NCBI GenBank assembly: GCA_018715595.1
Contig: DVLI01000025.1
Location: 1-64,000 of the forward strand
Source: Candidatus Caccoplasma merdavium
GTDB lineage: Bacteria; Bacteroidota; Bacteroidia; Bacteroidales; UBA11471
Direction: 5' to 3'
DNA: 64,000 nt
The notes under the pieces: model-generated
The model's input: the letters and a program-made list of their open reading frames with translations, nothing else
Databases searched by the model: none
What the model was told of the DNA's origin: nothing
Part shown: positions 26,430 through 61,723 of the stretch, piece after piece
Numbering within the stretch: position 1 is the stretch's first letter
Layout of the letters: each line of letters begins with the position of its first letter
Translations under genes and position numbers: made by a program

Positions 26430-26491
26430 GTAATTGTTTCTTAACATAATTGTTACTGTTCTATAACAGGCTTGTTATTCCCTTGTAATAA
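26430..26491 (+). promoter_or_regulatory. 11-bp-phased repeat array upstream of the TonB receptor
   Basis: Six 7-bp elements each followed by a 4-bp spacer lie in exact 11-bp register: GTAATTG, TTAACAT, GTTACTG, ATAACAG, GTTATTC, GTAATAA. TTAACAT and ATAACAG are 22 bp apart. The register and the TTAACA-like cores resemble the binding pattern of PhoP/PhoB-type response regulators, but a match by eye is weak evidence. The array ends 8 bp before the -7 element at 26500. Confidence 0.4.
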
Positions 26492-26538: not shown

Positions 26539-29271
26539 ATGATCAAGGCAAAAGTTATTTTATCAATTCTCCTTGTTTTTGTGGCTTTCTCACGCATGGC
26601 TTCGGCCTATACGTTGAGCGGAGTCGTGATAGACAAACACACGGGCGATGTGCTTATCGGCGCGACGGTTGTCGTGAAAGAGAGGCCGTCGATGGGTACG
26701 GCTGCCGGTCTCGACGGGACTTTCCAGTTGAAAGACCTTCCCCAAGACATGAAAATGACCCTTGTGGCTCGTTATTTGGGATATAACGAGGGCGAGTATG
26801 TGGTTTCTCCCGAGACAGAGAATATAAGAATCGAACTCGAACCCCAAAGCCACAGCCTCAACGAGGTGGTGGTCGAGGCCAAGTATGACCGGGCGACCGA
26901 CATGGGCGCCCGTTACATCGAGCGGAACGCTCCTACGGTGATGAATGTGATGAGCGCCCGCAGCATCGAGATTTCACCCGATGTGACGGTGGCCAATGTG
27001 TTGCAACGCATCTCGGGTGTGACGATGGAGCGCGAGAGCTCGGGCGAAGGCCAGTATGCCGTGTTACGCGGTATGGACAAACGCTACAACTACACGCTGG
27101 TCAATGGCGTGAAGATACCCAGCCCCGAGAACAAGGACCGTTACATCGCTCTTGATATTTTCCCCAGCGAGATGCTCGACCGTCTCGAAGTGACCAAGTC
27201 GCTCACGCCCGACATGGAAGGCGATGCCACCGGTGGTGTGGTAAACCTCATCATGAAAGAGGCTCCCTCGTCGCGACTCTTCAACATCAATGCCTCGGTG
27301 GGTTACAACTCGCTGTTTTTCAACAATCGGTTTATGACCTTCGACCGCGGCGGGGTGATGATGGCTTCGCCGCGCGAGACCTTCGGCAAGGAGTATCACG
27401 CCACACCCGCCGACTTTGAGCAGGGCACGATGAGTTACAAGCAGCGTGCCGCGCTGCCCGATGTGACGTTTGGCCTCTCGTGGGGCGACCGTTACTTCGA
27501 CGACCGGCTGGGTATCGTGCTCTCGGGCAGTTTCCAGAATTTCAACCGCGGCACCGAGTCGCTCTTCTTCGAAGACAACATGCCGCAGAGCGAGTCGACG
27601 GTGCGTCTCTCGTCAATGCGGGAGCGCTTCTACTCCGAGATGAAGATGCAGTATGCCTTGCACCTGAAAAGCGATTTCCGCCTCAACAAGTACAATACTT
27701 TCTCGCTCTATGGCGTGTATGTGGGCAACAACTCAATGGGGGTGCGCGACAGCAAGATTACCGACCTCTCGCTCAACTATGCTCCCGAGAAGGGCAATTC
27801 GCTCGAAGAGTGGGAGACCCGTTCGGTTTTTGAACGGCAGAACATCGTCTCGTTCACCCTGCAAGGCGACCACCGGCTGGGTCGTGGTGTCGAGGCCGAC
27901 TGGTCGCTCGTGTGGGCCAACGCCACCAACGATGCCCCCGACCGCACCTATGTCGTGCTCGAAAACGACCGCAACAACTACGTCGACAAGGTGCGTGCCG
28001 ACCACATGGAGCGCCGCTGGGAGAGCAACAGCGACCGTGACCTCTCGGCAGCTGCCAACTTCGAATGGAAACACGATGAGGCTTTCGCTCCGATGTCGTT
28101 GAAGTGGGGCGGGCTCTACCGCGACAAACGCCGCACCAACGATTATGTGTCGTACCTTTTTACCCCCGACGGCCAGCAATATCAGGGGAGTGACTTCTCT
28201 GCCGTCACCGACATTGTGTGGAAGTTGCAGGCTTCGCAAGGTAGTGTGGGTCCGCTCGATTACGATGCCCATGAGCGCATCGGCGCGGCCTATCTCATGT
28301 ATCGTCTCGGCGACGATGTGTGGAACGTCATTGCCGGCCTCCGCGCCGAGCACACCGACCAAGGCTACCACATGTATTACCCCAACTACAAGGACGACCC
28401 CGACGGCGGTCAGGTGTATTGGGATTTCCTGCCGTCGCTCCACCTCAAATATTCGCCCGTCGAGGCGATGAACCTGCGCCTCTCCTACTTCCGGTCGGTA
28501 AACCGTCCCGGTTTCTTCGAAGTCGTTCCCTATTCGATTATCAACGAAGACTACACTGAGTTCGGAAACAAAGACCTGAAACGGGCCCGCATCGACAATG
28601 TCGACCTGCGTTGGGAGTGGTTCCCCTCGGTTACCGACCAGGTGATGGTGGGCGTTTTCTACAAGAACATACAGGACCCTATCGAGTATGCCTATTACTC
28701 GGTCAACAACCGGCAGTTCGGTTACGGCCCGGCCAACCTGGGTAACGCCCGCAACGTGGGTGTCGAGGTCGATGTCATCAAATATTTCCGCTACATCGGC
28801 ATCAAGGCCAACTACACCTACACCCATTCGCAGATTACCACCCCCAAGACACTCTATTCGCGTGAGAGCGGTTCGCTCCAACGCCTCTCGGTCGACCAGA
28901 CCCGCCCGCTCGTAGGCCAGGCTCCGCATGTGGCCAACCTCTCGCTCCTTTATAAGAATGCCGAGAAAGGGTGGGACGCCCAACTCTCCTTCTCCTACAC
29001 CGGTGAGAAGATGGCCGTCGTGTCGCACTATTACGAGGCCGACTACTGGGACAGTCCCGTCTTCTCACTCGATGCTTCGGTCGAGAAAAAGCTGGGTAAG
29101 TTCTCGCTTTACGCCAAGGCGACCAATCTGCTCAACACCCATTACAAACGCTACATCAAGACCACCAATGCCTATAACTACGACTTCCCGTCGCAGGGCC
29201 AGGACCGAACCCTTATTCGGGATAACTACTCCGGCATAGGATTCATGGTGGGCGTGCGCTATAAACTGTGA
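26539..29271 (+). CDS. TonB-dependent outer membrane receptor with N-terminal carboxypeptidase-like domain
   Basis: Outer-membrane transporter of 910 residues. The signal peptide ends near residue 23 (SRMASA). A carboxypeptidase-regulatory-like domain follows (about 24-110, LSGVVIDKHTGDVLIGATV), then a TonB-box-like LNEVVVEA. The plug (about 125-235) has VANVLQRISGVTMERE, LRGMDKRYNYTLVNG and GDATGGVVNLIMK. The barrel runs to the C-terminus. The plug resembles the Caulobacter/Xanthomonas receptor type rather than SusC, and no SusD follows. It heads a three-gene unit with a beta-helix lipoprotein and a phosphatase-like enzyme, so uptake of a phosphorylated ligand is a reasonable inference. Confidence 0.9.
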   Translation: MIKAKVILSILLVFVAFSRMASAYTLSGVVIDKHTGDVLIGATVVVKERPSMGTAAGLDGTFQLKDLPQDMKMTLVARYLGYNEGEYVVSPETENIRIELEPQSHSLNEVVVEAKYDRATDMGARYIERNAPTVMNVMSARSIEISPDVTVANVLQRISGVTMERESSGEGQYAVLRGMDKRYNYTLVNGVKIPSPENKDRYIALDIFPSEMLDRLEVTKSLTPDMEGDATGGVVNLIMKEAPSSRLFNINASVGYNSLFFNNRFMTFDRGGVMMASPRETFGKEYHATPADFEQGTMSYKQRAALPDVTFGLSWGDRYFDDRLGIVLSGSFQNFNRGTESLFFEDNMPQSESTVRLSSMRERFYSEMKMQYALHLKSDFRLNKYNTFSLYGVYVGNNSMGVRDSKITDLSLNYAPEKGNSLEEWETRSVFERQNIVSFTLQGDHRLGRGVEADWSLVWANATNDAPDRTYVVLENDRNNYVDKVRADHMERRWESNSDRDLSAAANFEWKHDEAFAPMSLKWGGLYRDKRRTNDYVSYLFTPDGQQYQGSDFSAVTDIVWKLQASQGSVGPLDYDAHERIGAAYLMYRLGDDVWNVIAGLRAEHTDQGYHMYYPNYKDDPDGGQVYWDFLPSLHLKYSPVEAMNLRLSYFRSVNRPGFFEVVPYSIINEDYTEFGNKDLKRARIDNVDLRWEWFPSVTDQVMVGVFYKNIQDPIEYAYYSVNNRQFGYGPANLGNARNVGVEVDVIKYFRYIGIKANYTYTHSQITTPKTLYSRESGSLQRLSVDQTRPLVGQAPHVANLSLLYKNAEKGWDAQLSFSYTGEKMAVVSHYYEADYWDSPVFSLDASVEKKLGKFSLYAKATNLLNTHYKRYIKTTNAYNYDFPSQGQDRTLIRDNYSGIGFMVGVRYKL

Positions 29272-29325: not shown

Positions 29326-30636
29326 ATGAAACTGACAAAAATCATGGCAATGTTTTTTGCCGCAACCACTATCTTTGCAACCGCGTGCTCCGAGGAGGAC
29401 AAGAACAACGACGGCATCGATTCCGGATCCAACAGCCTGCCCGGCAATGTTATCGTCTGGCCCAAAGACACCACGGTAACCCTTACCGACCACTTCCTCG
29501 TAGACGAAGGCCAGGTGCTTGTTGTCGAAGAAGGTGCGACCGTGATAGCGGCCAATACCGAGGTGAAACCCGAAATCGTCGTCCTCGGCAGCATGTACTG
29601 CCTGGGTACCGAAGAGAATCCCGTTACCTTCACCGTTGAAGCCTCGTCGAAGGGGAACCGCTTCTCCCGCAACTGGGGCGGCATCATCTGCGGATATGAT
29701 TGTCCCGAACTGGTATTGCTCCATACCGTTGTCGAGTATGGAGGGGCATTGACGACCGAAAACTCGCTCTCGTTCCGCAATCAGCTCTTCAAGACAGAGA
29801 CCGGCGAGGGTGTACCGGCTGTACACTTCTGCAACCCCGATGGTAAGATGTTGATTCAGAACTGTGTGTTCCGCAACAACGCCGAAGACCAGATTTACAT
29901 CACCGGCGGTGAGTCGATTGTTTCCAACAACTATTTCATCTGCAACGGTGAAGAGGGTGGCGAAGCCATCAACTACAAGTCGGAGTGCAAGGCCGATATT
30001 GCCTATAACCTCATCTACGATGCCAATACCAACGGATTCAAACTCTCCAACTCGGGATTTACCAACGTACAGTCGCATCTCTATTGCTACAACAATACGA
30101 TTGTGAACAGCGGCTGGCGTCGTCCCAAGAAAAAAGGTGGTTCAATATGGCTCGAAGAGGGTATCTATGCCGAGATGTACAACAACATGATTTACGACTG
30201 CCGCTGGGGTCTGAAACACGATACCGAGGCTTTTGAAGACGAGAAGTGCGTGATTACGCCCAACTACTATTTTGCCTCGACCGCCGAAGGCGTGGAACAG
30301 ATGCAAGCCGATGAGAGTGAAGGTATTCTCAATGGTGCCAATGACATCATGAGCGCCACGGCCGGCGACAAAGACCCGCTCTTTGTGAACTTTACCCGCC
30401 AAAGCGACATTAACATCAATGTCGGTGCCAATGAGGCCGGCGCACCCCAAGAGTGGAACGATGCCTGGGATTTCCACCTCGCAGCAGGTTCACCGGCTCT
30501 CACCGGCGGTAACACCTCGTTTACCCGCCATTATGCCAATGGCCTGACCTTCGAGGGTCTCGAAGGTATCTATTCGCAGACGACCTTTGTTTCGCCCGCC
30601 CCCTCGGCCTTCTTCGGCGCTTTCGGAAGTAAATAA
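29326..30636 (+). CDS. Right-handed beta-helix-like lipoprotein
   Basis: Lipoprotein of 436 residues. The signal peptide ends in FATAC (Cys21) followed by SEEDKNNDG, an acidic surface-export type sequence. The body has short repeated turns such as MLIQNCVFRNNAED, SIVSNNYFICNGEE, KADIAYNLIYDANT, HLYCYNNTIVNSG and AEMYNNMIYDCRW. These are typical of parallel beta-helix proteins of the pectate-lyase type. No polysaccharide-lyase catalytic set is clear. It lies 54 bp behind the TonB receptor and just before the phosphatase-like gene, so it may be a surface ligand-binding partner. Confidence 0.75.
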   Translation: MKLTKIMAMFFAATTIFATACSEEDKNNDGIDSGSNSLPGNVIVWPKDTTVTLTDHFLVDEGQVLVVEEGATVIAANTEVKPEIVVLGSMYCLGTEENPVTFTVEASSKGNRFSRNWGGIICGYDCPELVLLHTVVEYGGALTTENSLSFRNQLFKTETGEGVPAVHFCNPDGKMLIQNCVFRNNAEDQIYITGGESIVSNNYFICNGEEGGEAINYKSECKADIAYNLIYDANTNGFKLSNSGFTNVQSHLYCYNNTIVNSGWRRPKKKGGSIWLEEGIYAEMYNNMIYDCRWGLKHDTEAFEDEKCVITPNYYFASTAEGVEQMQADESEGILNGANDIMSATAGDKDPLFVNFTRQSDININVGANEAGAPQEWNDAWDFHLAAGSPALTGGNTSFTRHYANGLTFEGLEGIYSQTTFVSPAPSAFFGAFGSK

Positions 30637-30662: not shown

Positions 30663-31610
30663 ATGAAAATCAAACATCTGTTTTATGCCCTTTTGCTGTC
30701 GGCCTGCTTTGCCGGCGCCGCTGTGGCTCAGACCTCGGTCGAAGTACCTGCCATAAGCGAAGAGGCCCACTCGTTCATCGTCGCCAATGACCTCGGCCGC
30801 AACGGCTATTACGAACAGAAACCCATTGCCGAGCTCATGGGGCAGTTGGCCGAAAATGTCGACATTGAGTTTGTCGCCGCTTTGGGTGACGTGCATCACT
30901 TTGAGGGCGTGGCTTCGGTCGACGACCCGTTGTGGCTCACCAACTACGAACTCATCTATGCACACCCCGAATTGATGATTGACTGGTATGCCATACTCGG
31001 CAACCACGAATATCGTGGTAATACCCAGGCTGTTCTCGATTACACCAAGGTGAGCCGTCGCTGGTCGACCGAGGGTCGTTACTACGCCATTGAGCAGGAA
31101 GCCGGCGACAACGAAAAGATGCTCCTTGTCTTTATCGATACCACCCCCCTCATCGACAAGTATCGCGAAGACAGTGAGAAGTATGCCGATGCCGGGAAGC
31201 AAAACATGAAAAAGCAACTCGACTGGATAGAGAAAACGCTGAAAAACAGCACGGCCAAATGGAAAATCGTGATGGGTCATCACCCGGTCTTTGCCGATAC
31301 CTACAAAGACGAGTCGGAGCGCCGCGATATGCAGGAGCGCATCAAACCGCTGCTCGATGCCTACGGCGTAGACCTCTACCTGTGTGGCCATATACACAAT
31401 TTCCAGCACATACGTCCTGCCGGCAGTGAGGTGCAGTATGTGGTCAATTCGTCGGGTTCGCTGGCGCGTGATGTCAAGCCCACCGAGGGGACGCTCTTTT
31501 GCAGTTCCGATGCCGGATTTTCGGTTGTCTCGGCCGACGATGATACTTTGACGTTGTATATGATAAACGCCGAAGGAAAGATTATATATAGTTTCTCGAT
31601 AAAGAAATAA
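30663..31610 (+). CDS. Purple acid phosphatase (TRAP)-like metallophosphoesterase
   Basis: Exported enzyme of 315 residues with a signal peptide (MKIKHLFYALLLSACFAGAAVA). Its layout follows tartrate-resistant acid phosphatase: Asp43 in ANDLGR, Asp76 in GDVHHFEGV, DPLWLTNYE, Asn114 in GNHEYRGN, His206 in GHHP, and His243 and His245 in GHIHN. In known TRAP the motif is GDNFYxxG, whose Tyr binds iron and gives the purple colour. Here that position is His79. It presumably hydrolyses phosphate esters in the periplasm or at the surface. I chose the ATG at 30663 rather than a TTG at 30648. A terminator follows at 31657. Confidence 0.87.
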   Translation: MKIKHLFYALLLSACFAGAAVAQTSVEVPAISEEAHSFIVANDLGRNGYYEQKPIAELMGQLAENVDIEFVAALGDVHHFEGVASVDDPLWLTNYELIYAHPELMIDWYAILGNHEYRGNTQAVLDYTKVSRRWSTEGRYYAIEQEAGDNEKMLLVFIDTTPLIDKYREDSEKYADAGKQNMKKQLDWIEKTLKNSTAKWKIVMGHHPVFADTYKDESERRDMQERIKPLLDAYGVDLYLCGHIHNFQHIRPAGSEVQYVVNSSGSLARDVKPTEGTLFCSSDAGFSVVSADDDTLTLYMINAEGKIIYSFSIKK

Positions 31611-31728: not shown

Positions 31729-32103
31729 CTATCTCATGCCCAAAATGATGCCGAGGACATAGGGTATGAGCCAAAAGGCCCACACGAAAACGCTGAATTT
31801 GCTGAAATTGCGTTTTGCCTTCATGCTACCTTTCCAATAGGTGAGAATGGCCCACAAGGCGTGTACCGCCATGAGAAAGAGTGCGGCGGCTCCGGTAATG
31901 CCGTGTAATACATCTTTGTTTACCGGGTCGTTCATCTCGGTCATCAGGGCTGTGCCGAAGGAGTCGGCACATAGTCCCAGCAAGAAGAAAACGATGTGCC
32001 ACAGGCGTAAACGTTTTTCGATGCGTTCACCCCATGTGCCGATGGAATAAAAGACAAGGGCCAATGTCATGCTTACAATGGCTAATCCTAAAAGTGCGTT
32101 CAT
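31729..32103 (-). CDS. HsmA-like small membrane protein
   Basis: Integral membrane protein of 124 residues with four predicted helices: about 2-20, 33-52, 65-84 and 103-121. Its sequence (MNALLGLAIVSMTLALVFYS, FFLLGLCADSFGTALM, HGITGAAALFLMAVHALWAI) matches the small family annotated TIGR03987 or HsmA, as I recall it. Function is not established. The start is the ATG at 32103; an upstream in-frame extension is unlikely. It is the last gene of the minus-strand run from lpxK, 87 bp past the TlpA gene. Confidence 0.75.
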   Translation of the reverse strand: MNALLGLAIVSMTLALVFYSIGTWGERIEKRLRLWHIVFFLLGLCADSFGTALMTEMNDPVNKDVLHGITGAAALFLMAVHALWAILTYWKGSMKAKRNFSKFSVFVWAFWLIPYVLGIILGMR

Positions 32104-32190
32104 AATATGGGTCGAAAGAATCGCCCGAGATTGAAACCGGGCGATTCGCATTGTTAATAATGAGTGTGTTGTCGGAATTGTAGGGGGTGA

Positions 32191-33267
32191 TTATTTGCCC
32201 AAGGCTTTTTCTACGGCTTCGTCGATGGCTTTCCCGTGCAGGTCGCGGGCGATGATGTTGCCTTCGGGTGAGAAAAGGATTACTTGCGGAATGCCGGTGA
32301 AGCCATAGATGTTGGCCGGAATGTCTTGTGCGTCGATGATTTGCGGCCAAGGCATCTGTTCTTCTTCCAGTGCTTTGAGGGTGGCTTCCCGTTTATCCCA
32401 TACGGCAACACTCACAACCTCGAAGTTCTCTCCTCCATATTCTTTGTAGAGCTCTTTGATGCCGGGTATGCCGCCACGGCAGGGAGCGCACCACGATGCC
32501 CAGAAATCGACCAGGACATATTTGCCTTTGCCCACATAGTCGGAGAGCGAAACGGGGGTACCGTCGATATTGCCGTTCTCGATGGTGAAGTCGATGAAGC
32601 GGCTGCCGGGACGGTTGGCTTTCATGCCGTTATTTACGTTTACCGATTTTTGTATGACGGCACTTTCCTTGATGCTGGCGGGAACATGGCTCAGAGCCTC
32701 GTCAAATTCGTCGGTGCCTATGGCGTAACTCAGCCATTCAGAGGCGCAATAATCTCCCACGGAGGTCCCGGCATATTCCAGGGCGGCTTCTTTGTAAATC
32801 ATGCGCAAGGTGTCGTTGCAAGCTGCGCTGATGCCGTCGCGTGTTTTTTCGAAGTCGGGTTTTTTGGCGTCGAGGGCAAGGATTTGGAATGTGGTCGAAA
32901 ATTGCAACGAGATGTCGCGGGCCTTTATGTTGATGAGGGAATCGTTTTGCTCGGTGCCGCTGGTCTCATAAATGATGTTGAATACCGGGTTGATCGAGAG
33001 TCTTATCTCTCCCGGTTCAATGATGAGAATGGCCGATTTGCCGTCGCCATAGTTGGCCTGGGCGACGTAGCTTTTACTGATTTCACCCTCGAACAGGGCT
33101 TTCCCGTCGGTAAAGACAGTGCTGTCGACGACTTCATTGGTGAAGTAGTTGAGCAGGACGATGGGGGTGTTGTCCGCGACGTTTTCGTAGTCGACAGCGA
33201 CCCGATAAGGTTTGCTGCATGCTGTGAGCAGTAGTGCCGAGGCAAAGATAAATAGAGCTTTTTTCAT
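32191..33267 (-). CDS. TlpA-like lipoprotein, thiol-disulfide oxidoreductase (copy 1)
   Basis: Lipoprotein of 358 residues with lipobox LLTAC (Cys17). A DUF4369-like beta domain (about 20-115) and a helical middle (about 120-220) precede a C-terminal thioredoxin fold (about 225-358) with active site WASWCAPCR and cis-proline motif GIPQVILF. It is probably anchored in the inner or outer membrane facing the periplasm, where it would reduce disulfides. It is clearly paralogous to the next gene upstream: SLSDYVGKGKYVLVDFWASW is identical in both. The active site here is CAPC, not CGPC. Confidence 0.88.
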   Translation of the reverse strand: MKKALFIFASALLLTACSKPYRVAVDYENVADNTPIVLLNYFTNEVVDSTVFTDGKALFEGEISKSYVAQANYGDGKSAILIIEPGEIRLSINPVFNIIYETSGTEQNDSLINIKARDISLQFSTTFQILALDAKKPDFEKTRDGISAACNDTLRMIYKEAALEYAGTSVGDYCASEWLSYAIGTDEFDEALSHVPASIKESAVIQKSVNVNNGMKANRPGSRFIDFTIENGNIDGTPVSLSDYVGKGKYVLVDFWASWCAPCRGGIPGIKELYKEYGGENFEVVSVAVWDKREATLKALEEEQMPWPQIIDAQDIPANIYGFTGIPQVILFSPEGNIIARDLHGKAIDEAVEKALGK

Positions 33268-33342: not shown

Positions 33343-34440
33343 TTACTTTTCCAGGGTGGAGGCGATGAATTGTTTCATGCTATCGCCGCGCAGGTCGCGG
33401 GCAAGAATGGTGCCGTCGGGCCCGAAGAGCATGATTTGGGGTATGCCGCTGATGCCGTAGAGGTTGGTCGGTATCTGTCCCGCGTCGATGATTTGCGGCC
33501 ACGGCAACTGTTCCTCTTCGATGGCTTTGAGCGTATCGTCGCGTTTATCCCATACGGCGACACTCACGATTTCGAAGTTTTCACCGGCAAATTGCTTGTA
33601 AATCGCTTTCAGGTTGGGTGTCTCGGCACGGCACGGGCCGCACCACGATGCCCAGAAATCGACCAGCACATATTTGCCTTTGCCCACATAGTCGGAGAGG
33701 GAGACCGACGTCCCGTCGATGTTGCCGTTGATGATGGTGAAGTCTGTAAACATCGAGCCGACTTTGGTCGCATTCAATTTTTTGTTCTCATCGATGCAGC
33801 GTGCTATCATCGGGTATTTGAGGTCGTCGCTGGTGACGAGAGCCGCGGTTTTGTCAAATTCGTCGCCGCCGACCAGCATGTTGAGCCAGTTGGCCAATGC
33901 GTAGGTGGCTACGCGACTGCCCGGCATGGCTTCGACGTAATGGGCCGAGATGGTGCCGAAAGCCTCCATCATCTCTTTTTGCAGGGCAATGTCTTGTTCT
34001 TCTGTGCCGGTGCCGCTTTCGGCCAGGGCCTGATGGCGGGCAAAGAATTTTTCTTGTATTTCCTTGACGTCGGAGTAGAAACTTTGCAGGGAGTCATTTT
34101 GCGGGGTTCCCGCAACGGTCCAGTTTGGAGGGTCGATGGTGATATTTCCCCCTTCGAGAATGAAGACGGCGCTTTCGCCATATGGGGAGTCGACAAAGAG
34201 CTGGCAGAGCTTGGCGTCGTTGCATCTCCCTTTGAAGATGGCTTTGTCATTGCTTACGACGACGCTGTCCATGGGCTTTTCGGTCGTAAGGTCGATGATA
34301 AATGCCTGTTTGCCGTTGCTGGTGGCATCGCATTTGACGGTGACGGTGTACTGCGGGGTGCAGGCCGAGAAGAGCAGCAGGGCGAGTCCCCCGATGAAAC
34401 CTTTGGCCGCTTGTGTCCGTAGGGAAAGAATGGTCTTCAC
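33343..34440 (-). CDS. TlpA-like lipoprotein, thiol-disulfide oxidoreductase (copy 2)
   Basis: Lipoprotein of 365 residues with signal peptide ending LLLFSAC. The domain order is the same as in the downstream paralogue: a DUF4369-like beta domain, a helical region and a thioredoxin fold with WASWCGPCR and GIPQIMLF. The start codon appears to be GTG at 34440; no in-frame ATG comes before the signal sequence. It stands 11 bp after thiL in the lpxK-pnp-thiL run. The two copies share long stretches in the thioredoxin half but differ in the N-terminal half, which suggests different partners. Confidence 0.87.
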   Translation of the reverse strand: MKTILSLRTQAAKGFIGGLALLLFSACTPQYTVTVKCDATSNGKQAFIIDLTTEKPMDSVVVSNDKAIFKGRCNDAKLCQLFVDSPYGESAVFILEGGNITIDPPNWTVAGTPQNDSLQSFYSDVKEIQEKFFARHQALAESGTGTEEQDIALQKEMMEAFGTISAHYVEAMPGSRVATYALANWLNMLVGGDEFDKTAALVTSDDLKYPMIARCIDENKKLNATKVGSMFTDFTIINGNIDGTSVSLSDYVGKGKYVLVDFWASWCGPCRAETPNLKAIYKQFAGENFEIVSVAVWDKRDDTLKAIEEEQLPWPQIIDAGQIPTNLYGISGIPQIMLFGPDGTILARDLRGDSMKQFIASTLEK

Positions 34441-60253: not shown

Positions 60254-61330
60254 TTAGGACAGGGCCGGCACAAGGTATTTACACAGGGCATATCCGCCGA
60301 AGAGGAGCCACAGGTAGATGATGCCGGCCAGATAGAAGGGCTTGGCACCGGCTTGTTTGAACTTGTCGATGCTGGTCTCGGCACCGAGGGCGGTCATGGC
60401 CATGGTGAGCAGGAAGTTGTCGAAGCTGTTGATGGCGCTGATGCCGGTGCTCATCACCTCCGCGGGTATGAAGGTGAACGATTGCAGCAGCGAGTTGAGG
60501 GCAATGACCAGCAGGAATCCGAAGGCGAACCAGGGAACCGATATCTTGCTCTTTCCGTCGGCGGCAACGTCGGTGTGGCGGGCGCGGCGCACACGGGCTA
60601 TGATGTAGCTCATGATGAGCAGCACGGGAGCCAGCATCATGACGCGAATCATTTTGGTGATGGTGGCTTGGTCGGCCAGGTGCAGGGCGCCGTCGGGGTC
60701 CATGGCGTTGCCGGCGCCTACCACATGGGCAACCTCATGCAGGGTCGAACCGGCATAGATGGCCATCTCCTGCGGCGAGAGGTCGAAGACGCCGGTGCGG
60801 TAGAGTATGGGATAGAGGAACATCGAGAGCGTACCAAAGATGACCACCGTCGACACGGCAATGGCGGTCTTGTGCGGGGCGCATTTCACAACGGGCTCGG
60901 CACCCAGCACGGCGGCTGCTCCGCAAATGGCGCTTCCGGTCGAAACCATGAGCGAAGTCTTCTCGTCCATCTTCATCAACCGGCCGGCCACCACGCCCAA
61001 AAGCAGGGTTATGACGATGACGATGACGTCGATGATGATGGCGGGCAGTCCGATGGCAAGTACCTGTTGGAAGGTGAGGCGGAAACCGTAGAGAACGATA
61101 CCCGTGCGCAGAATCTGTTTGGTGCAGAATTTGATGCCGGGAACCCAGGTCTCGGGAATGTAGTTGCGCAGGCTGTTGGCATATATCATACCTAAGATGA
61201 TACCCACGATGAGCGGGCTGAGCGACAGGTCTTTGACCCATTGGAACTCGCTGATGTAAAAGGCCGAGAAAGAAAACAGGGCCATGAGGAGTATGCCATG
61301 CGAGACGGCGGCTTTCTGTTCCGAAATCAT
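60254..61330 (-). CDS. YeiH/UPF0324 family putative sulfate exporter
   Basis: Integral membrane protein of 358 residues with about ten helices. Family segments include SPLIVGIILGMIYANSLR (about 37-54), GIVLYGFRLTFQQVLAIG (about 77-94), STGSAICGAAAVLGAEPV (about 129-146) and YAGSTLHEVAHVVGAGNAMD (about 191-210). The family is annotated as a sulfate or sulfonate exporter, on limited evidence. The ATG at 61330 follows the promoter element at 61362-61369; an upstream open extension lies too close to that element. Confidence 0.88.
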   Translation of the reverse strand: MISEQKAAVSHGILLMALFSFSAFYISEFQWVKDLSLSPLIVGIILGMIYANSLRNYIPETWVPGIKFCTKQILRTGIVLYGFRLTFQQVLAIGLPAIIIDVIVIVITLLLGVVAGRLMKMDEKTSLMVSTGSAICGAAAVLGAEPVVKCAPHKTAIAVSTVVIFGTLSMFLYPILYRTGVFDLSPQEMAIYAGSTLHEVAHVVGAGNAMDPDGALHLADQATITKMIRVMMLAPVLLIMSYIIARVRRARHTDVAADGKSKISVPWFAFGFLLVIALNSLLQSFTFIPAEVMSTGISAINSFDNFLLTMAMTALGAETSIDKFKQAGAKPFYLAGIIYLWLLFGGYALCKYLVPALS

Positions 61331-61361
61331 AGATGATGGGATTAAGATTTTTTTGAGACGG

Positions 61362-61369
61362 CAAAAATA
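61362..61369 (-). promoter_or_regulatory. Promoter -7 element of the YeiH-like gene
   Basis: On the minus strand this reads TATTTTTG. The leader would be about 26 nt. Confidence 0.55.
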
Positions 61370-61723
61370 CAAAATAAACTGGAATCTGCCTTTTCATTGA
61401 CGGCGGGGAGATGGACGGAAACCGTATTTTTTTTCATGGAAAAGAGATTGTTTTGTCATCATATTGTCACAACTGGAATCTATTTTTGCCCTCGAAAAAG
61501 GAGGCAGAAAGGTTTGTGAGATTCTGTCGTAGGTTTCGTAGGAGTCATAGCCTCCTGTGACAAGGTAAAAGATTGTTATTGTTTTTTCGTTATAGTGTGT
61601 TGAAGGAGCTTCTCTGTCGAAGAGCGGCTCTTTTGTTGTATGGTCGTGTATGTGCCATGTTACAATCTTGTTACATTTTGCGGTTTGCGCATCTGCCTGC
61701 AAACAGTTTCGCACGGAATCGCG

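Follow-up and report, generated by a model that had tools for sequence, protein, structure and literature searches.

The gene at 30663 to 31610 of the DNA examined here, a 64,000-nucleotide stretch of Candidatus Caccoplasma merdavium (Bacteroidales) referred to below as the window, probably encodes an exported phosphatase of the phosphate-starvation type, with a binuclear metal site and from a non-purple subfamily derived from tartrate-resistant acid phosphatase (TRAP), in which the Tyr on metal 1 has been replaced by His. A rough probability of 0.6 is assigned to this reading. The features on which the argument draws are listed below.

26472-26488, + strand: Pho-box-like tandem 11-bp repeat TTGTTATTCCCTTGTAA, ending 50 bases before the receptor start

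26539-29271, + strand: TonB-dependent receptor of 910 aa, TIGR01782-like (267 bits, under the model cut-off of 310)

29326-30636, + strand: beta-helix protein of 436 aa (PF13229, 31.6 bits), encoded between the receptor and phosphatase genes; ATAC near residue 21 resembles a lipobox

30663-31610, + strand: TRAP-like metallophosphoesterase of 315 aa (PF00149, 67.4 bits) with a signal-like N-terminus of uncertain cleavage type

30789-30791, + strand: codon of Asp43, a predicted metal-1 ligand; the preceding residue 42 is Asn, as against Gly in Tyr-type enzymes

30885-30899, + strand: GDVHH codons, the final one (30897-30899) being His79, in the column of the iron-binding Tyr of TRAP

Translation of 30663-31610 gives a complete frame, and the metal-binding motifs lie where the sequence-only reading had placed them: D43 in NDLG (from residue 42), D76 and H78-H79 in GDVHH (from 75), N114 in GNHE (from 113), H206 in GHHP (from 205), and H243 and H245 in GHIHN (from 242). 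That reading had also put His79 in the position of the ligand Tyr, and the alignments bear it out. In the phmmer comparison with the PDB, GDNFYFTGV stands over GDVHHFEGV without gaps, rat TRAP having Y in this column, and a 60-sequence profile gives the same ungapped register. No other Tyr that could serve as the ligand occurs in residues 74-84 of the window protein, and a misalignment hiding one is ruled out by the phmmer alignment, the tree alignment, and the 60-sequence profile. In the set of 169 homologues described below, a Tyr one residue before position 79 is found only in three GDNYH rows. Six of the seven ligands of the strict purple acid phosphatase (PAP) set, which includes the Tyr of GDxxY, are present and the Tyr is replaced by His79, leaving the protein outside that set.

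The relationship to TRAP is apparent in both sequence and fold. The best PDB sequence matches found by phmmer are rat, human, and pig TRAP (best E 4e-30), and mammalian TRAPs also come first with the 60-sequence profile (2.1e-38), aligned over profile positions 58 to 314. With the AF2 model (mean pLDDT 83.1, pTM 0.85), the top Foldseek match is human TRAP 1war (E 2.8e-23), and VIA-align 2 superposes pig TRAP 7ov2 with a Z of 32.5 and an rmsd of 2.5 over 270 aligned residues. TRAPs reach Z values of about 31-32.5 in this comparison, plant PAPs about 22, and GpdQ and Rv0805 about 18-19. The pLDDT falls below 50 at residues 79-93 and 117-125, and the placement of His79 in the model is unreliable. 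With TRAP as the best sequence and fold match over the domain, the protein belongs to the TRAP/ACP5-like branch of PF00149. It resembles mammalian TRAP type 5 (ACP5; 1war, 1qfc, 1ute) across nearly the whole domain, in six of the seven metal ligands, and in motif order, but has His79 for Tyr and GNHE for GNHD, and is bacterial and operon-encoded. In Bacteroidota and gammaproteobacteria there are also TRAP-like proteins of the Tyr type, for instance those of Catenovulum (L171) and Pseudoalteromonas (L172); they are about 26-42% identical and share the other ligands. They differ in carrying GDNFY or GDNIY, and at residue 42; some of them likewise adjoin a TonB receptor.

The ligand roles known from PAP structures, transferred through the alignment, would have metal 1 held by Asp43, Asp76 (bridging), His79, and His245, and metal 2 by Asp76, Asn114, His206, and His243. 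The metal-1 set predicted in this way (Asp, Asp, His, His) is of the Mre11/Rv0805/CpdA type. In metallophosphoesterases of that type, the His of motif I (DxH) is a metal-1 ligand. Motif I of the window protein is D43-L44-G45, without a His, which separates it from them; the His near metal 1 would be supplied by GDxxH. Since the predicted set also matches the CpdA/Rv0805/GpdQ type, the enzyme could be regarded as chiefly a phosphodiesterase or cyclic-nucleotide phosphodiesterase. No NCBIfam model was matched above its cut-off, and two of the three matches below it, all of them far below, are cyclic-nucleotide phosphodiesterases; the fold matches include GpdQ and Rv0805. The TRAPs, however, give far better scores than these (Z 31-32 as against 18-19) over the profile positions stated above, and a principal phosphodiesterase function appears very improbable.

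As to the metals, the sequence-only reading is partly supported. It had predicted a different metal pair, which His79 does not require: calcineurin and Rv0805 have a His in the metal-1 site and still bind Fe(III). A different pair in the His79 enzyme is possible, not necessary. The predicted absence of purple colour has fared better, the tyrosinate needed for charge transfer to Fe(III), from which the colour of PAP arises according to part of PMC8366450, being missing from the sequence.

A survey of this position in Bacteroidetes homologues, proposed together with the original observation, showed that the swap is widespread. GD[VIT]HH occurs in 81 of 81 sequences, i.e., the window and the best 80 of 354 Bacteroidales loci, a selection biased toward close relatives. 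Their agreement rules out a sequencing error or a pseudogene. The wider set was assembled from overlapping genome samples, with matches in 68 of 395 genomes for the phylum (at 1e-10; 61 genomes of the phylum were drawn again), 28 of 295 for the order, and 22 of 395 for the class (both at 1e-20), and was completed by additional stretches and three plasmid loci. At E 1e-20 it comprises 182 frames, 169 of them unique (170 and 157 in an earlier set); own-genome loci L173-L179 were excluded, and the divergent L137 frame (GDVHQ) falls outside. Position 79 is His in 108 of the 169 homologues, Tyr in 56, Gln in three, Arg in one, and a gap in one fragment. The six other ligands are intact in 165 of the 167 H/Y/Q rows, the remaining two being truncated frames. 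Across the sequences compared, the swap is no one-off but a constant feature that marks an entire Bacteroidales branch. The constant replacement is residue 79 and not residue 78, because the latter varies among the His rows (H 100, F 5, Y 3), which disfavours H78 as a substitute ligand.

The Gln rows (GDNFQ) are L159 and L163, from one genome, and L160, with the other ligands all intact. The Arg row (L130) represents a TRAP-like homologue in which several further metal ligands are missing, possibly a non-catalytic relative. In genome G393 (L111, 17 kb), two TRAP-like paralogues lie about 12 kb apart, one with GDVHH and the other with GDNYH. Viral homologues of the phosphatase were looked for and none were found.

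Residues around the site differ together with residue 79. At residue 42, the His rows have N, S, or T in 106 of 108 cases and the Gln rows S in 3/3, as against G in 54 of the 56 Tyr rows, the other two having an A and a gap. For residue 116, E is found in 104 of the 108 His rows and D in all Tyr (56/56) and Gln (3/3) rows, and residue 77 is N in every Tyr row (56/56) and mainly V/I/T in the His rows; residues 44, 80, 244, 246, 262, and 263 likewise distinguish His from Tyr rows in the 169-row set. Much of this companion change can be shared ancestry; with few independent transitions, the pair tests (79-42, 79-116) had too few independent pairs to tell coupling apart from descent. Judged from these residues, the His rows have a common remodelled second shell, of which shared descent explains part. 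Such remodelling bears on the alternative that His79 is nearly neutral and that the enzyme is an unchanged TRAP-like Fe(III)-M(II) phosphatase, with the same chemistry, pH, and substrates save for its colour. The remaining ligands are indeed all unchanged, and TonB-receptor neighbours are common to Tyr-type and His-type proteins, but the invariance of residue 79 in the His clade and its covariation with the residues named here (42, 44, 77, 80, 116, 244, 246, 262, and 263), even if partly due to shared descent, make a neutral exchange unlikely.

The history of the loss was examined in a tree of 90 rows obtained by a quick method with the trait columns omitted. The 98 HH rows are represented in it by 34 sequences (below 72% mutual identity; L158 omitted), to which 55 other rows and rat TRAP were added; L164, L130, L137_1, and L122, which are fragments or divergent, were excluded. 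The GDxHH and GDxFH proteins form a single 36-row clade (SH-aLRT 99) and the GDNYH and GDNFH proteins a second group (SH-aLRT 89), with the GDNFQ, GDMFH, and GDFFH rows unplaced. Parsimony requires at least two changes for Tyr versus not-Tyr and four for Y/H/Q. Nevertheless, the test does not reject a tree in which all 45 non-Tyr rows are constrained into one group (p-AU 0.616, likelihood 6.18 higher), nor one in which the 42 His rows are (p 0.487). Repeated independent losses of the Tyr, suggested by the two parsimony changes, are therefore not adopted, as one non-Tyr clade survives the test; on this tree, one single loss is possible.

Receptor, beta-helix gene, and phosphatase all lie on the + strand with short gaps, the phosphatase being last. 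Downstream, on the opposite strand, the phosphatase adjoins a gene for an HsmA-family membrane protein (31729-32151, -; TIGR03987, 147.5 bits), beyond which are two tandem thioredoxin-fold proteins (32191-33267 and 33343-34440, -), each with an N-terminal DUF4369 domain. A TonB receptor stands upstream of the phosphatase in 73 of 80 Bacteroidales loci (L002-L081, the best 80 of 354). These comprise 42 loci with receptor and beta-helix gene and 31 with the receptor alone, which is of a distant type, about 25% identical. Among the other loci of these best 80, four have the beta-helix gene alone (three with less than 1.6 kb of upstream sequence) and three have neither (L043, L058, L077). Of the 108 His rows, 37 have a lipobox-like string within their N-terminal 32 residues, and the export signal may be either an ordinary signal peptide or that of a lipoprotein.

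In the Tyr-type relatives from Catenovulum and Pseudoalteromonas, the operons consist of a TonB receptor, the TRAP-like gene, and a phytase. Both operons are plasmid-borne and adjoin AraC-type and GGDEF/diguanylate cyclase genes. The role of the operon seems independent of His79, because some Tyr-type relatives also accompany TonB receptors, there with phytases. Together with a His-type member, L153, which has a phytase-like gene upstream (1e-51), these operons have to be considered in favour of a dedicated inositol-phosphate phosphatase partnered with a beta-propeller phytase. The Catenovulum phytase, however, has no match in the window and the best 80 of 354 loci (L001-L081), and the nearest relatives have a beta-helix gene or nothing in the place of the phytase; such a specialised role seems improbable for the window protein, and general phosphate scavenging by the non-purple enzyme is preferred.

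A comparable gene pair has been described in Flavobacterium johnsoniae, where PUSIII and PUSIV (Fjoh_3856/3857 and Fjoh_0545/0546) are phosphate-regulated pairs of a TonB receptor and a lipoprotein, as reported in part of PMC8115612. One of the lipoproteins is annotated IPR011050, and the authors relate it to a low-phosphate lipoprotein of Caulobacter (parts of PMC8115612 and PMC2996285). The likeness to the window operon, compared by description alone, consists in a TonB receptor with a lipoprotein, one of them of pectin-lyase-type fold (same part of PMC8115612). The portion of PMC8115612 concerned describes no TRAP-like phosphatase with these pairs, in which they differ from the window.

A possible link to phosphate is provided by the repeat TTGTTATTCCCTTGTAA before the receptor. 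From this site, a looser pattern, TGTNA-N6-TGTNA, was defined after the site had been seen. Of 69 receptors, that of the window included, 24 are preceded by it, with 0.97 expected and a maximum of 4 in 100 first-order Markov resamplings, and eight by the reversed control pattern. After removal of near-identical upstreams, the counts are 21/57 versus 8/57 (Fisher p 0.009). In the whole genome of the organism the pattern is not enriched and is unspecific alone, with 32 matches versus 29 for the reversed control. There, one match (L176 6629-6644) precedes the PstS-type gene of pst-phoU by 44 bases, another (L178 5980-6006) sits where a PHO4 phosphate permease gene begins, with a Porin_O_P gene after it, and a third (L177 4678-4706) is 88 bases ahead of an OmpR-type response regulator. 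At C20:158523 (L179), Pfam revealed no phosphate gene in the two neighbours scanned. The window operon thus has a Pho-box-type repeat in common with the pst genes, as would be expected of a Pho-regulon member, with the caveat of the reversed-pattern counts. The strict form TTGTWA-N5-TTGTWA has a single genome match, at the receptor, and is descriptive only, having been written from that very site. The classic TGTCA Pho-box pattern gave 26 matches with two mismatches, versus 47.7 expected, and says little when taken alone. Elsewhere in the window, an exact TGTCA-N6-TGTCA and a TGTTA repeat (61454-61469 and 61658-61675) are located upstream of a PF03601 gene (60254-61372, -).

According to the preferred reading, phosphate limitation probably induces the operon for receptor, beta-helix lipoprotein, and, last, phosphatase through the Pho-box-like site. 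The phosphatase would be exported and would free phosphate from organophosphates captured at, or imported through, the outer membrane. Catalysis would follow the course known from TRAP and other metallophosphoesterases, with a metal-bound hydroxide attacking the phosphate monoester. Lacking the tyrosinate, the enzyme should be colourless, and a pH optimum nearer to neutral may be expected.

A more far-reaching and tentative proposal, which we hold with less than even confidence, is that a large natural TRAP branch lost its defining Tyr, perhaps once, and that a His-type metal-1 site was rebuilt from GDxxY, with Gln (GDNFQ), FH, YH, and HH as surviving stages. The resulting phosphatase would be colourless and work at neutral pH, perhaps using only divalent metals, and would fit anaerobic gut bacteria short of phosphate. 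If this were true, the ligand set that other metallophosphoesterases obtain from DxH would have been reached in a different way.

Within the superfamily, an exchange of Tyr for His is already on record, human CPPED1 being reported to have His where PAP has Tyr, as in the window protein (part of PMC8366450). According to the same part of that paper, CPPED1 differs in being without three PAP active-site residues and is classed by the authors with class III cAMP phosphodiesterases, not forming a TRAP branch (PMC8366450). A His-type TRAP branch in Bacteroidota was not recognised by title or abstract start in the openly licensed PMC literature. The role of the PAP Tyr has usually been probed with mutants. 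The more than 100 natural His homologues and the few Gln ones, with an otherwise constant ligand set and second-shell changes included, permit a direct test of how the Tyr affects the choice of metal, the redox state, and the pH. In addition, the operon and its Pho-box-like site hint at a route of phosphate scavenging in gut Bacteroidales that has been little studied.
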